A DNA stretch of 34,589 nucleotides from Myxococcales bacterium FL481 (GTDB lineage: Bacteria > Myxococcota_A > Polyangia > Nannocystales > Nannocystaceae). The notes beneath the pieces are model-generated. The model had not been told where the DNA came from, made no database searches, and saw only the letters and a list, made by a program, of their open reading frames with translations. Location of the stretch: the NCBI GenBank assembly GCA_006508105.1, contig QKPP01000078.1, forward strand, positions 1 to 34,589. The letters run 5' to 3'. The translations under genes were made by a program, and so were the position numbers. Every line of letters starts with the position of its first letter. The first letter of the stretch is position 1. Positions 8,156-26,307 of this stretch are shown here, piece after piece.

Positions 8156-9426
8156 GTGCCTTCCGCGTCCCCAGACTGCGGACCGTCGGCCGCGACCGTC
8201 GGCTGGGCGGCCTCGCCGTTGGCCTCGCCCGCGTCGGCGAGTGGCTTCCCGTCGCTGTCCACCAAGACGACGCTGGCCCCGTCTTGCAAACCATCGTGCC
8301 CCGCGACGACGACTTGCTGATCGGCCGCGAGACCTGAGACAACCTGCACCCGATCATCGTCTTCGAGCCCCAATTCGACGAGCGTGCGCTTGACGGTGGG
8401 CTCCTCCTCGCCGGACTCCAACACGAATACGTGCACCCGCTCCTCGTCGCGAACAAGGGCCGTTTTGCTGACCAGCAAGGCGCCTTCCCGCCGCTCGGTG
8501 GTGAGCGTCACTTCGGCGTACATCCCGGGTAAAAAGCCCCGCTCGGTGCCCGTCGCGGCCACCGGCAACGCCACGGTCACCTTGACGGTGCCCGTGGCCG
8601 CGTCGACGATCGGCGCGATGCGAGTCACCGTGCCGGTGCCGCGCCGCCCTTTCGCGGCCTTGCCGACCACCCGGGCCGGCTGGCCCACGCGAATGCGATC
8701 GAGCTCTTTTTCGGGCACGTAGACACGAGCCACCAGTGTGTCGAAATCGACCAACGAGAACAGCTGAGCGCCGTTCGAGACGAACGCCCCTTCCGCCACC
8801 ACACGCTCCGTCAGCGTCCCGGCAAACGGCGCGAGCACCCGAGTGTTGCCCACGTCGCGGCGGCGATCGACGCGATCTCGCTTGGCGATGCGTAGCGCAT
8901 CTTGGGCTTCGGCGAGGTCTTGATCGCTGGCCACGCCGCGCCGGTGCAGCGCCTGCACCCGGGCCAGGTCGGTCCTCGCCTTGTCGAGTCCCTCATCGGC
9001 CCGAGCGAGCTGGCTCGACTGCGAGTCGTAGCGCAAACGAGCCAGTAGCTGGCCCTTCTTCACGTTCTCGCCCTCTTCGACGTTCAGTTTGATGATTCGG
9101 CCGGTCGCCTCGGCGTGCACCGTAACTGATCGCTCGGCTTCGATTGTACTCGCCGACACAATCGACGCTGCAATATCGCCGACCTCGACGGCCGCGACCG
9201 CCACCGGGGTCGGCGGCTCGGAATCGCCGGTGCCGCCGGTTGAACTACTGGTGTCCGACTTGTCGCCGCCGAAACCGGCCCCAGGCGGCCCCATTTGGCC
9301 ACAGGCCGCGAAAAACAAGGAGAGTCCGACCAGCGGACCCAGTGGCCAGGCCGGGCGTCGACACCGGGGGCGATGCGAGGCCGCGACGGTACGACGAACG
9401 GAGAAAAGCGAGAAGGAAGTGGTCAT
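8152..9426 (-). CDS. RND efflux periplasmic adaptor (membrane fusion protein), lipoprotein
   Basis: A 424-aa HlyD/AcrA-type adaptor linking inner-membrane RND permeases to an outer-membrane channel. The N-terminus has a hydrophobic core ending in a lipobox (LSLFFAAC, Cys42), then a Gly/Ser/Thr-rich linker. Next come a biotinyl-lipoyl-like half (VTVHAEATGRIIKLNVEEGE), a short alpha-helical hairpin rich in Ala/Arg/Asp (about residues 135-190), the second lipoyl half (VLAPFAGTLTERVVAEGAFV) and the beta-barrel and membrane-proximal domains. A short acidic Ala-rich tail ends it. The ATG at 9426 is chosen; an in-frame GTG at 9453 with AGG upstream is possible. It is the first gene of the coupled operon, so expression probably starts in the 154-bp gap before it. 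Confidence 0.92.
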   Translation of the reverse strand: MTTSFSLFSVRRTVAASHRPRCRRPAWPLGPLVGLSLFFAACGQMGPPGAGFGGDKSDTSSSTGGTGDSEPPTPVAVAAVEVGDIAASIVSASTIEAERSVTVHAEATGRIIKLNVEEGENVKKGQLLARLRYDSQSSQLARADEGLDKARTDLARVQALHRRGVASDQDLAEAQDALRIAKRDRVDRRRDVGNTRVLAPFAGTLTERVVAEGAFVSNGAQLFSLVDFDTLVARVYVPEKELDRIRVGQPARVVGKAAKGRRGTGTVTRIAPIVDAATGTVKVTVALPVAATGTERGFLPGMYAEVTLTTERREGALLVSKTALVRDEERVHVFVLESGEEEPTVKRTLVELGLEDDDRVQVVSGLAADQQVVVAGHDGLQDGASVVLVDSDGKPLADAGEANGEAAQPTVAADGPQSGDAEGT

Positions 9427-9607
9427 GACACGAAATGGGGCCCAACGATCCACCGGACCTGGACGCAGCTACGCCGCCAACTGGCGCCGCTTGGACCCGA
9501 CGAGGCCGGTGGGTGTTTCGAGACGAGAAGAGTCGTGCCACCGCACGAGAACACGACAAGATGGTGGCGATCGTTCGCGGCGCGCGCTCGACCGCAGCTG
9601 TCGCGGA

Positions 9608-10384
9608 CTAGCCGCGGGCCAAGAGCCCTTCCGCCAGCTCTGAGAACGCCGCCGCCTCTCGCGCCTGCGCGACAAACTGCGGCAAATCATCGAACTGTTG
9701 GAGCTGATCCACCACGTCCCGGGTGCCGACGGTCAAGCCGAATCGCCCGGGGCGAAACAGGCCCACGTCGTTGGGTGCGTCGCCGATGGTCGCCACCGTG
9801 GTCGGATCGGTGCCTTCTTGCGCCAAGACTTGGAGCAGGCCCTCGCCCTTGTCAGGAAGTTGCTCGGCGAGATGGACATGCACGTTGGACCAGACGAGGT
9901 GGACGCCTCGCTCGCGCGCTCGCTCCCGTAGTCGCTCGAGCTCGGGCTCACCGCGGCCCTCTCGCTCGTAGGCGACATCGCCGAGGCGACAAAACGCATC
10001 GCCGGTGCGCTGCAACCCAGCCTGGTGGTCCGCGTTGAGCCAATCGCCCACCGCCAACAACCGCTCCACGTCCGTGGGGCGACCCGAGATCCAACGCGGG
10101 GCACGATCGGGCACGACTTCGAGCAGGCCGTTTTCCGCGATGCCCCGGGTCACGCCCGGCAGGTAGCGGCACAATCCCAAGACCTCCCCCGCGGGGCGGC
10201 CACTGACCGGGATCACCTCGACCCCAGCGCGAATCAGTCGAGCGATGACCTCGACGATCGGAGACCGCAGCTCGCCGCGATCCGTGAGCGTGCCATCGAC
10301 GTCGGTGGCGACAATCGCCACTCGAGCCCACGCGCGGGGGTCAACGCGAGCGGCTTCGGCAAGGGGTCGGGGTCGGGCAGTCAT
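9608..10384 (-). CDS. HAD superfamily phosphatase (HAD-IIB, Cof/SPP-like)
   Basis: A 258-aa cytosolic HAD hydrolase. Motif I is DVDGTLTD with nucleophile Asp28 and general acid Asp30; motif II is the Ser in VIPVSGRP; a Lys in LPDKGEGL fits motif III; motif IV is GDAPND. The cap inserted between motifs II and III fits the type IIB group, which contains sugar-phosphate, phosphoglycolate and mannosyl-3-phosphoglycerate phosphatases. The substrate is not predictable. The ATG at 10384 is chosen because the conserved core starts about 20 residues later; a longer start at 10420 would overlap the divergent kinase start. It is followed 154 bp later by the efflux operon on the same strand, with no obvious functional tie. 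Confidence 0.85.
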   Translation of the reverse strand: MTARPRPLAEAARVDPRAWARVAIVATDVDGTLTDRGELRSPIVEVIARLIRAGVEVIPVSGRPAGEVLGLCRYLPGVTRGIAENGLLEVVPDRAPRWISGRPTDVERLLAVGDWLNADHQAGLQRTGDAFCRLGDVAYEREGRGEPELERLRERARERGVHLVWSNVHVHLAEQLPDKGEGLLQVLAQEGTDPTTVATIGDAPNDVGLFRPGRFGLTVGTRDVVDQLQQFDDLPQFVAQAREAAAFSELAEGLLARG

Positions 10385-11730: not shown

Positions 11731-11807
<77 letters not shown>

Positions 11808-13634: not shown

Positions 13635-14675
13635 ATGGACCGCATCACGATCACCCGTCCGGACGACTGGCACATTCACCTTCGAGACGGCGAGCATCTC
13701 GTCACCACGGTACCCCACGTGGCCCGTCAGTTCGCCCGCGCAATCGTGATGCCGAACCTCAAGCCGCCGGTGGCCACGGTGGACGACGCGATCGCGTACC
13801 GGGATCGAATCTTGGCGGCGCGACCGGCTGGCTCTCGCTTTCGGCCGCTGCTGACCCTGTACCTAACCGATCGCACCACCGCAGAGGAGATCGAGCGCGC
13901 CGCCGCGTGCCCCGACGTGGTGGCCGTCAAACTCTATCCCGCGGGAGCGACGACGAACTCGGATCGCGGCGTCGCGGACTTGCGAGGGCTGGCGCCGGTG
14001 CTCGAGGTCATGGCCCAAACCGACTTGCTCCTGCTCGTGCACGGAGAAGTGACCGATCCCGAAGTGGACGTTTTTGACCGGGAGGCCGTGTTCCTCGAGC
14101 GTGAATTGGCGCCGATCCTCGAGCGGCATCCCCAGCTGCATGTGGTGCTTGAACACATCACCACGGAACAAGCTGTGGCCTTTGTGCGCGCCGGCGGACC
14201 CAATCTCGCGGCGACGATTACGGCGCATCACCTGCTGCTCAACCGCAACGCGATGTTCCAAGGCGGCTTGTCCCCCCACGCCTACTGCCTGCCCGTGCTC
14301 AAGCGAGAACGCCACCGGCAGGCCCTGCTGGGTGCCGCGTGCTCGGGAGAACCGAAGTTCTTTCTCGGCACCGACAGCGCCCCGCACCGGCGGACGGACA
14401 AAGTCAGCGACTGCGGCTGCGCGGGGATCTACACCGCCCACGCGGCCATGGAGTTTTACGCCGAAGCGTTCGATAGCATGGGGGCGCTCGAGTACCTCGA
14501 GGGCTTCGCCAGCCAGTTCGGCCCGGATTTCTATGGCCTGCCCCGCAACCGCGAGACGATCTCGCTGGTGCGTCGACCATCACCCGTGCCAGCCTCGTAT
14601 CCGCTGGCCGGCTCGCAGCTCGTACCGATGCGTGGTGGCGAGACCACGCAGTGGCAGCTCGTCGCCCCCGGCTAA
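13635..14675 (+). CDS. pyrC: Dihydroorotase
   Basis: A 346-aa cytosolic zinc amidohydrolase that interconverts carbamoyl-aspartate and dihydroorotate, the third step of de novo pyrimidine synthesis. It is a class II enzyme like E. coli PyrC (348 aa). Every ligand is present at an offset of about three residues: His13 and His15 ([10 protein letters not shown]), Lys99 ([15 protein letters not shown], the carbamylated lysine), His136 (LVHGEV), His174 (LEHITT) and Asp247 (GTDSAPH). The ATG at 13635 is chosen because the conserved N-terminus begins there; longer in-frame reading overlaps the preceding gene. A TACAAT hexamer lies only 11 nt before the ATG, so a very short leader is possible. No other pyr gene is nearby. 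Confidence 0.96.
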
Positions 14676-23390: not shown

Positions 23391-23750
23391 TCATCCGATC
23401 GGCGAGATCTGCTCGATTCGGGTGCCGAGCCCCGCCGCGAGTAGCTGCGACTCGAACGCGGCGACATCGTGTTCTGTGGCCGCCGTCTTGCGAAACGTGA
23501 CGACGATCCGGTTCCCACCGATCACGCCGCTAATGTGCACATCTGGTCGGTCGACGACAAAATGGTCCCGCGCCCCCTGCACGCGCTTTGAAAACGCGTG
23601 CACGACGACCAGGTCCGGGGGAAACTGCGCCAGAAAGCTCCTGCCCACGCCACACGCCGCGAAGTAGTGAATCCGGAGCTTGCTGGCGCAATCCAGCGTG
23701 CGGACGGCCCGAACCGCTCCGGCTAGCTGGCCTTGGGCAGCAGATCCCAT
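23391..23750 (-). CDS. Hypothetical 119-aa protein, last gene of V4R-like cassette
   Basis: A small soluble protein of unknown family. After a short Ala/Gly/Val N-terminus it alternates strands and helices (KLRIHYFAACGVGRSFLAQF, DLVVVHAFSK, RIVVTFRKTA) and looks like a compact alpha/beta fold. Its ATG lies 28 nt inside the end of the V4R-like gene, so it is probably translationally coupled and works with it. It has two cysteines near the N-terminus (CASK, AACG). No signal peptide or membrane segment. Low shadow character supports reality. It ends convergently, 105 bp from the CrtI-like gene end, with no clear terminator between them. Confidence 0.6.
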   Translation of the reverse strand: MGSAAQGQLAGAVRAVRTLDCASKLRIHYFAACGVGRSFLAQFPPDLVVVHAFSKRVQGARDHFVVDRPDVHISGVIGGNRIVVTFRKTAATEHDVAAFESQLLAAGLGTRIEQISPIG

Positions 23751-24997
23751 TGGTGATCGGCTCGCTCGACCGCAAACTCGGTCCTCGCGTGGCCCATCGC
23801 ACCGCTCGAGATCGGTGTCGCGCCGTAGGAACCCGATGATTTGAATAGGCGCTGGTAATACTCTGCGGTGAACGCTGGCCGACTCGCAACCTCGCCATGA
23901 TAAACGAGGTTCATGATCCCGGCGGCTGCGCCTTGAGCCAGGAAGGAGACGGGGCGCGGCGAGTGGCCATACATACTGCGATAGCCGCTGCTTTCGTAGT
24001 CGTCGTGAATCACAAATTCGGCCGAGCGTTCCGACACGTTGCGCACCTGCCAGCGTCCCCATCCGAGCGCATTGACGCAAGCGACGATACCGTGGACCCA
24101 GTCCTCCTGGCTCTTGAGTGTGGGCTGAATCAATGCCTCCCACTCCGGTGATGTCATGATGCCGCCGAAGGTATTGAACGCGCAAACGTGACCCGCCTCG
24201 ACGAGCAGGGGAGCGGCCACATCGGCACCGGTCGACCCGAGCTCGCGGGTGAGGGCATTGAGAAACTCAAACGAAATGCGGTTGTAGTAGTTGCCGTAAT
24301 GCCGCGTAAGATACACGCCGAACGCCGGAATCATTCCCCGCTCATCACCTTCTATCGGCATCTTGGACAAGGCGTCCAAAATGCCCTCGTAGTCGACGTT
24401 GGGAGTTGTCACCGACAGCGGAACATGATTCGTTAACGTTCCAGCCCCGACCGACTCGAAGATCGAGTAGTTGGCTTGTCCCGATTCTAGCTCGAACGTG
24501 GCGGTGTCGTGATCCGGCACGGACGGGCAGGTTGTTTGCCGCACGCTGAAACTGCCGAGTGGCTTGTCGAAGATCGCAGCTGCAGCCCCCGCCAGCCACC
24601 CCGATGAGAATTGGCAAACAGGCCGGGAACTCACCCCGAACTTGGCCTTCCACGCCATCGCGTAGTGCGCGTGGGGAGTCTCAACCCGTCCTCCCTCGGG
24701 CGTCAGTGGGCCCAGATCAAACGTCCCAAAGCCGGCCCAACGGTAGAGCTGTTGCGCCACGGACTTGCGCTCGTCGACGGCGGCGAGGGAAAGCTCGGCA
24801 AACACGGTTCGCAGCTGGGCGAACGCCACCTCGGCCGCGGCGCCGACCAAAAACGGCTCTGATTGCACAATCGGTGCATCCTCGGCGATCGTGCGCTGCA
24901 AAAACGTGTTGTAGTGATGGCAATGAAAGAGCATCGGCTCGCCGCCAACGAGGCAGCGCCGGTGATCCAGGTCGTTTGTGACGGGGAAATCGACCAT
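23723..24997 (-). CDS. Protein with two tandem V4R-like domains, unknown function
   Basis: A 424-aa soluble protein with an internal duplication. Each half has a helical lead-in (FHCHHYNTFLQ... in the first, YGNYYNRISFEFL... in the second). Each is followed by a block WAGFGTFDLGPL / ALGWGRWQVRNV and a helix RPVCQFSSGWLAGAAAAIF / RPVSFLAQGAAAGIMNLVY. This order resembles V4R (4-vinyl reductase) small-molecule-binding domains, which usually show a Gly-rich helix followed by a Cys/acidic strand (here TTCPS...TATFELE). The match is by eye and moderate. The His-Cys-His-His run near residue 25 could bind a metal or cofactor. A strong AAGGAG lies 7 nt before the ATG. It sits between two small genes on one transcript. 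There is no DNA-binding or kinase domain, so any sensing role is inference. Confidence 0.72.
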   Translation of the reverse strand: MVDFPVTNDLDHRRCLVGGEPMLFHCHHYNTFLQRTIAEDAPIVQSEPFLVGAAAEVAFAQLRTVFAELSLAAVDERKSVAQQLYRWAGFGTFDLGPLTPEGGRVETPHAHYAMAWKAKFGVSSRPVCQFSSGWLAGAAAAIFDKPLGSFSVRQTTCPSVPDHDTATFELESGQANYSIFESVGAGTLTNHVPLSVTTPNVDYEGILDALSKMPIEGDERGMIPAFGVYLTRHYGNYYNRISFEFLNALTRELGSTGADVAAPLLVEAGHVCAFNTFGGIMTSPEWEALIQPTLKSQEDWVHGIVACVNALGWGRWQVRNVSERSAEFVIHDDYESSGYRSMYGHSPRPVSFLAQGAAAGIMNLVYHGEVASRPAFTAEYYQRLFKSSGSYGATPISSGAMGHARTEFAVERADHQWDLLPKAS

Positions 24998-25004
24998 CGT
25001 GGTT

Positions 25005-25010
25005 CTCCTT
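25005..25010 (-). promoter_or_regulatory. Strong ribosome-binding site of the V4R-like gene
   Basis: AAGGAG on the minus strand, 7 nt before the ATG at 24997, fills the 15-bp gap after the 69-aa gene. It is one of the best Shine-Dalgarno matches in the window. Confidence 0.85.
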
Positions 25011-25012
25011 GG

Positions 25013-25222
25013 TTACACGGGGCAGGGTTTGTTGACGACTTCGGACGCCGCCTGACGCAGCTCCGCGACGAGCTCCGGGTCGGCATGCGTGCGGGGAGTG
25101 AGCTGCTCAAGGGTGGTCTTGTGGCGGACAAGCGACTTGATGACTCGCAGGCGCAGCCGATTGACGGCCTCGACGTTCCCTTCGTCGCGAACCCAGCTGA
25201 TAATCTGGTGTGCGGTAGCCAA
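25013..25222 (-). CDS. Small 69-aa protein, first gene of V4R-like cassette
   Basis: A short, mostly helical soluble protein with an amphipathic centre (VEAVNRLRLRVIKSLVRHKT) and a C-terminal tail ending KPCPV with one cysteine. The start is set at a TTG (25220-25222) because AGGAG lies 8 nt upstream at 25231-25235. Longer in-frame readings toward 25342 have shadow-like Arg/Gly composition. Its stop is 15 bp before the V4R-like gene, so the two are surely co-transcribed. No family is recognised; it may be a partner or carrier for the larger protein. Small size and the TTG start make automatic annotation likely to miss or misplace it. Confidence 0.65.
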   Translation of the reverse strand: MATAHQIISWVRDEGNVEAVNRLRLRVIKSLVRHKTTLEQLTPRTHADPELVAELRQAASEVVNKPCPV

Positions 25223-25475: not shown

Positions 25476-25886
25476 TCAGCGCGGACGACTCAACTGCCCC
25501 ACCGACATACCGGCCGCCATGGCGACCACGAACCCGATCGCCGTCCACGAACCCGTGGCGAGGTTCGTCAGTGCCGGACCCGGGCAGTAGCCCGACAGGG
25601 CCCAACCGACCCCGAACAACGCTGACCCGACGAGCAAGCGGCGATCGACGCCGCGGGAGGGCGGCAACGCGAACGCGGCGCCGAACCGCGGCAGTGAACG
25701 CCGCATAGTGACTCGATACGCGATCGCGTTGACGGCCCAAGCGCCCGCCATGACGAAGGCCAAAGTCGGGTCCCAGCGGCCGAGCACATCGAGAAACCCG
25801 AGTACGCGGTGCGGATCGAGCATGCCCCCGACCGCGAGGCCAACCGCGAAACCAACCCCGGAGATGAACGCGACGAGCCAGCGCAT
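25476..25886 (-). CDS. YeeE/YedE-family permease half (PmpB-like)
   Basis: A 136-aa inner-membrane protein with about four helices. It carries the family motif with a conserved cysteine, SGYCPGPALTNLATGS, near residue 100, and a GMLDPHRVLGFLD loop early on. YeeE/YedE proteins import sulfur compounds such as thiosulfate, or related substrates, through cysteine relays; small two-gene versions (PmpA/PmpB) are common in proteobacteria. It begins 4 bp after the stop of the partner gene, so the two halves should assemble together. The ATG at 25886 is chosen because the first helix begins right after it. Confidence 0.85.
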   Translation of the reverse strand: MRWLVAFISGVGFAVGLAVGGMLDPHRVLGFLDVLGRWDPTLAFVMAGAWAVNAIAYRVTMRRSLPRFGAAFALPPSRGVDRRLLVGSALFGVGWALSGYCPGPALTNLATGSWTAIGFVVAMAAGMSVGQLSRPR

Positions 25887-25890
25887 CCGA

Positions 25891-26307
25891 TCAGCCCCCA
25901 AGCCCACGGAGGCACGCCACCGTGACGATGCCGGTGGCCATGAACGTGCAGACGGCGGCGAAGGAACGCATGGAGCCACGAGCCAGCCCGCAGACGCCGT
26001 GCCCGCTGGTGCAGCCGTTGCCAAGCGTGGTGCCGAGACCGACGAGGAACGCGGACAGCAACAACACGGTCGACGATTCCCGAATCGGGGCCCCAAACAA
26101 GGATGGTGCGACGCCGTTCACCGCAAGGCCGCCGATGATCAGTCCGCTGAGAAACACCAAGCGCCAGCCCACCTCGCGGCGCTGCAGGACGCCGCCCAAG
26201 ACCCCGCTGATCCCGGCAACCCGGCCGGTGCCCCACAGTAGCAAGGCCGCTGAGAGCCCGATGATCGCTCCGCCCGCGAGCCCACGAACGAGGAGGTAGT
26301 CCGCCAT
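25891..26307 (-). CDS. YeeE/YedE-family permease half (PmpA-like)
   Basis: A 138-aa inner-membrane protein with about four helices, partner of the gene just downstream. The signature LGNGCTSGHGVCGLARGS at about residues 94-111 contains the two cysteines typical of YeeE/YedE proteins, placed to handle sulfur-containing substrates. An early Gly-rich helix (GLAGGAIIGLSAALLLW) is also typical. AAGG lies 7 nt before the ATG at 26307. No rhodanese, persulfide dioxygenase or ArsR regulator is adjacent, although such genes often accompany pmpAB. The substrate is therefore inferred only from the family. Confidence 0.87.
   Translation of the reverse strand: MADYLLVRGLAGGAIIGLSAALLLWGTGRVAGISGVLGGVLQRREVGWRLVFLSGLIIGGLAVNGVAPSLFGAPIRESSTVLLLSAFLVGLGTTLGNGCTSGHGVCGLARGSMRSFAAVCTFMATGIVTVACLRGLGG

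Follow-up and report, generated by a model that had tools for sequence, protein, structure and literature searches.

The window, a 34,589-nucleotide stretch of DNA from Myxococcales bacterium FL481 that was analyzed as a whole, carries three closely packed genes on its minus strand. Gene A (25013-25222) encodes a small predicted adaptor of 69 amino acids and starts with TTG, with an AGGAG sequence 8 nt upstream; gene B (23723-24997), preceded by AAGGAG, encodes a tandem V4R protein of 424 amino acids and putative receptor; and gene C (23391-23750) encodes a small cysteine-bearing protein of 119 amino acids. A and B are separated by a gap of 15 bp and B and C overlap by 28 nt, an arrangement that agreed in every detail with the original prediction. 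Codon-position GC was found to be coding-like in all three, a codon-model gene caller selected A, B, and C alike, and their conservation across phyla shows that they are real genes. Located 253 bp upstream of gene A on the same strand, and outside the conserved module, is a gene pair (25476-26307) composed of (i) a DUF6691 gene at 25476-25886 (Pfam E-value 4.5e-41); and (ii) a Sulf_transp-like gene at 25891-26307, for which the Pfam E-values of 3.4e-5 and 1.6e-4 were under the curated cut-off. Based on these domain matches, the pair resembles both components of a sulfur transporter of the YeeE/YedE type. Among the loci compared, the pair was found upstream of the module in the window's genome only. 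The neighbors had been described as novel, which holds for A and C, neither of which belongs to a named family, and does not hold for this upstream pair. Promoter and terminator scans of the locus remained at chance level, and no plasmid copies of the module were found. A role of the cassette as a known anti-phage defense system was set aside, as the PADLOC models matched none of A, B, or C. The sole tRNA detected in the window was a tRNA-Pro (CGG) at 11731-11807 on the plus strand.

Analysis of B confirmed that it is a tandem V4R protein with the domain duplicated in one chain, as had been proposed from the appearance of its two halves. The first half matched the Pfam V4R profile (PF02830) at an E-value of 6.8e-6 and 26.5 bits, which is below the 31-bit curated cut-off; the same profile matched 37 of 62 B relatives at E ≤ 0.001, with a best E-value of 3.9e-20. 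When half 1 (24458-24970, minus strand, residues ~10-180) was aligned with half 2 (23750-24400, minus strand, residues ~200-416) by hhalign, the halves were found to be homologous (98.3% probability, E-value 2e-14), and in many Polyangia they are split into neighboring stand-alone genes of ~170 and ~215 amino acids. The AlphaFold model of B (pLDDT 95.8, pTM 0.94) was compared with the PDB by Foldseek, and the V4R domains of the phenol sensors PoxR, MopR, and DmpR were retrieved first at a probability of 1.00 (E-values of 5e-6 to 4e-4, the former for PoxR), followed by H-NOX, Bet3, and MJ1460. The weaker matches to H-NOX and TRAPP Bet3 are expected for the V4R fold group and imply neither sequence relation nor shared function. 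At the sequence level, the B profile reached MopR weakly (E-value 0.006), phmmer of B against PDB sequences gave no matches, and NCBIfam matched none of A, B, or C. Pfam detected no domain besides V4R in B; the protein stops after its second V4R half, with no AAA+ sigma-54 activator or DNA-binding domain fused to it.

B was next set against known V4R systems. It has the V4R fold in common with PoxR, MopR, and DmpR, but differs from these phenol sensors in that it (i) is built of two V4R domains without AAA+ or DNA-binding domains; and (ii) carries an HCHHYN motif typical of the B family. The cysteine cluster in the C-terminal part of V4R domains of the PoxR/MopR/DmpR type is a metal site. In the window B this cluster is incomplete, with C157 kept in half 1 and A166, S351, and S398 at positions where many relatives carry Cys, and this counts against reading B as a sensor. 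One tested relative resembled MsvR, a methanogen regulator with redox-responsive cysteines in its V4R domain (PMC3729527): the kinase-linked B of Nannocystis locus L134 matched the MsvR model at an E-value of 8.5e-9, with 35 bits against an NCBIfam cut-off of 220 bits, while the window B did not match this model. Counter to MsvR, B is without a DNA-binding domain and has separate small partners in A and C. Pairs of V4R units have also been reported to cluster with an Fe-S protein, bilin genes, and a bilin-associated globin (pre-PcyA, Synechocystis slr0144-slr0149; PMC10151467). That cluster resembles the module in its two V4R units and small partner genes, a likeness in gene content; its neighbor genes differ, with globin and heme oxygenase absent from the tallied neighbors of the module. 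V4R sensors are already known; neither Pfam nor NCBIfam names a family of this tandem, three-gene, multi-output form. Among the papers searched, none joined a V4R domain and a cysteine desulfurase and, among the titles listed, none described the three-gene module.

The His-Cys-His-His run noticed near the N-terminus of B (H25 C26 H27 H28) proved to be real and under strong constraint. It opens the HCHHYN motif (residues 25-30; 24908-24925, minus strand), which was kept in 31 of the 35 relatives retrieved by whole-sequence similarity. Across the family H25, C26, and H28 are nearly invariant, and position 27 is frequently Asn and not His. Residue C272 of half 2 (codon at 24182-24184, minus strand) was found to covary with H25/C26: among those 35 relatives, on which this count is based, the residues were jointly present in 31 and jointly absent in 4, a joint loss that may represent one or two events because all four losers sit in the roadblock-linked branch. 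This co-occurrence fits a single site that may be made from both halves. In the separate contig set, the conservation of HCHHYN and CAFNTFGG is biased, since the set was fetched with patterns derived from those motifs. The B paralogues of the roadblock-linked loci L063, L066, L069, and L070 have lost H25, N30, and C272 together.

Of the 379 Myxococcota genomes sampled, 35 were found to encode a B relative, the window's own among them; a second copy was looked for in that genome and found to be absent. When one genome was scanned for each species, 184 B relatives were obtained, with 80 loci kept. The organisms in the B tree span ~17 phyla, some of the labels of which may be wrong because many of the genomes are metagenome bins. 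On the tree, the window B groups with full support in a clade of nine rows from several phyla; no recognized output gene is attached to the module in any of these rows, and no kinase, phosphatase, or response regulator is adjacent to it in the window or its clade.

The small genes were found to recur beside B. Of 108 distinct loci, 46 gave an A-type profile match immediately upstream of B and ~69 a C-type match immediately downstream; 50 of the latter fell within strict limits, and the remainder, counted by hand, were in reading frames extending back into B. The A-B-C order was conserved across phyla. The original prediction was to be abandoned if B had no structural match to V4R or if the small genes were not conserved beside it; the structural match was obtained and the small genes are conserved. 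A few further C genes lie upstream of B or are inverted, as in L055, where the C gene (14308-14610, minus strand) is inverted relative to B at the contig end, and the one C-type match distant from B was marginal (E-value 0.0096). A large minority of the B loci are without a recognizable C or A, which counts against a three-part sensor complex. Gene fusions were detected for both small proteins. In L082, A is joined to the B N-terminus (E-value 3.9e-18), and at a locus listed as both L041 and L116, C is joined to a cysteine desulfurase (E-value 9.8e-18). In L120 (Sericytochromatia; 9206-9655, plus strand), C appears from its sequence to run on into a region bearing two CxxCxxCxxxCP motifs, which are typical of [4Fe-4S] ferredoxins; an IscS-type cysteine desulfurase gene follows.

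Neither small protein could be assigned to a known family, with Pfam giving a match at chance level only for A and none for C. The AlphaFold model of C had a pLDDT of 90.5, and its comparison with the PDB retrieved nothing at E ≤ 0.001 (best TM ~0.4), by which C as a known fold was dismissed. Cys21 (codon at 23688-23690, minus strand) is a near-universal residue of the C family, conserved at 90% or more in two alignments; the L076 protein, which seemed to be without it, was traced to a start-codon miscall and is not a real exception. The most divergent C groups have position, size, and the cysteine in common, which falls short of proving sequence homology among them.

The genes that adjoin the module in relatives were tallied. 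No kinase partner had been seen in the original prediction, which is correct for the window but not for its relatives, in which histidine kinases, SpoIIE/PAS/STAS proteins, response regulators, and cysteine desulfurases are adjacent. Compared with background genes (other genes of the same loci) and with shared ancestry ignored, the downstream positions were enriched for PAS_4 (16/70 versus 3/105), HATPase_c (11/70 versus 5/105), STAS (6/70 versus 0/105), and SpoIIE (4/70 versus 0/105). Class-V aminotransferase domains were also enriched downstream, by P-values that likewise ignore shared ancestry. These proteins are cysteine desulfurases of two different classes that retain the catalytic Lys and Cys, and they were found after C in Sandaracinaceae-type, Holophagae, Sericytochromatia, and other loci. 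Upstream of B, relatives encode response regulators, ODP di-iron proteins, and ParA together with roadblock-like proteins; the ParA and roadblock-like genes precede B in Polyangia, and a roadblock gene does so in Acidithiobacillus. When mapped on the B tree, the kinase-type label needed 8 changes (5 forced by well-supported branches) and the NifS-type label 5 changes (3 forced), so that the core has acquired different partners on several occasions. The roadblock/ParA linkage was found on one side of the tree only (17 rows, 2 changes). In Nannocystis L134 (5697-11271, plus strand), as well as L142 and L148, an SBP56 gene and a membrane protein gene are followed by B, C, and a kinase-type protein; SBP56, of the 56-kDa selenium-binding/methanethiol-oxidase type, was seen beside the module in this one genus.

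We hold, with somewhat more confidence than doubt, that A, B, and C form a self-contained sensory input complex, the outputs of which are interchangeable between lineages. B would be the receptor, with two V4R domains in one chain resembling a fused V4R dimer. At a His/Cys site to which half 1 may give H25-C26-x-H28 and half 2 C272, it would either bind a metal or small ligand or respond to thiol redox. A would serve as a small adaptor at the B N-terminus, and C as a small thiol-bearing partner docked on B, with a conserved cysteine that may share or report the state of B. Histidine kinases, SpoIIE phosphatases, PAS/STAS proteins, roadblock/ParA proteins, ODP di-iron proteins, and cysteine desulfurases would be the outputs elsewhere. 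This proposal is favored by (i) the V4R fold nearest to that of the ligand-sensing PoxR, MopR, and DmpR; (ii) the A-B and C-desulfurase fusions; (iii) the downstream partner enrichment and the regulator, ParA, roadblock, and ODP genes upstream; (iv) the co-occurrence of H25/C26 and C272; (v) the A-B-C order kept across phyla; (vi) the repeated partner changes on the B tree; and (vii) the MsvR match of the kinase-linked relative. The gene order and the L082 fusion bear indirectly on whether A, B, and C interact. The window clade is without an adjacent output gene, which counts against the sensor complex, and its output would therefore be expected in trans. The MsvR similarity, cysteine desulfurases, SBP56 genes, and the sulfur transporter of the window make thiol redox or reactive sulfur the most likely signal; this is the weaker part of the claim, and we put it forward tentatively, with doubt outweighing confidence. 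A more specific version, in which the single cysteine of C is charged or read at the His/Cys site between the B halves and one redox/reactive-sulfur receptor feeds, depending on lineage, into kinases, phosphatases, ParA-type ATPases, or desulfurases, would seem a long shot.

The main rival to sensing is sulfur carrying, with C as a persulfide acceptor or carrier supplied by a cysteine desulfurase or through import of a sulfur compound, and B as a scaffold or enzyme that uses the sulfur, e.g., in an Fe-S or metal-thiolate center. The one near-universal Cys of C would suit this role, as would its fusions to a desulfurase and to a ferredoxin-like CxxCxxC stretch, the desulfurases of two classes with intact catalytic residues that follow it in several lineages, and the YeeE/YedE-type transporter upstream in the window. 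However, desulfurases occur at a minority of loci and signaling partners are commoner, the transporter linkage was seen once, and the model of C gave no fold match to known sulfur carriers in the PDB; we regard this explanation as unlikely. Even less probable is a structural or polarity platform, in which B acts like a homologue of TRAPP Bet3 with roadblock and ParA proteins. Though Bet3 is among the structural matches of B and the ParA and roadblock-like genes of Polyangia and Acidithiobacillus are suggestive, that linkage does not extend beyond one side of the tree, the window cassette has no roadblock, ParA, or small GTPase, and four roadblock-linked copies have lost the HC/C272 residues.

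The original prediction had allowed for a pigment or lipid ligand, by which the module would serve carotenoid or tetrapyrrole metabolism. Hydrophobic molecules are the presumed ligands of V4R domains (PMC2253512), other V4R pairs cluster with the bilin genes noted above, and the cassette lies end to end with a phytoene-desaturase-like gene at a distance of 105 bp. Yet this gene runs toward the cassette, which is thus not in the carotenoid operon; lycopene cyclase and the desaturase are encoded opposite to A-B-C, convergently and without cotranscription, and carotenoid genes are absent from the tallied neighbor families at other loci. The carotenoid link was accordingly set aside, and we consider a pigment or lipid role very improbable.

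Returning to the sensory reading, this undescribed three-gene unit, spread across many phyla, is probably a chemical sensing device, likely of redox or sulfur. V4R domains are widespread and few have a known signal; here, the module occurs in ~17 phyla with two small proteins that are absent from the family libraries searched, one of them of unmatched fold. As the module is coupled to recognizable outputs in some lineages, its signal should be findable, and an answer read from the output of kinase-linked species would be transferable to standalone versions such as that of the window. A redox or reactive-sulfur signal, if true, would add a sensor class.

Several further arrangements were noted among the B loci. 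In Myxococcota (L040, 1516-4979, minus strand; also L045 and L053), an operon of a ParA ATPase gene, two roadblock-like genes, a tandem V4R gene, and a C-type gene does not correspond to a recognized system. In Acidithiobacillus and Calditrichales (L104, 6707-9299, and L119, 1446-4454, both plus strand), ODP di-iron beta-lactamase-fold genes and a roadblock or other small gene are directly upstream of B, while in Halothiobacillus (L111, 6252-10113, plus strand) a single run encodes a roadblock-like protein, a PAS protein, a PhnD-like binding protein, B, and a response regulator.
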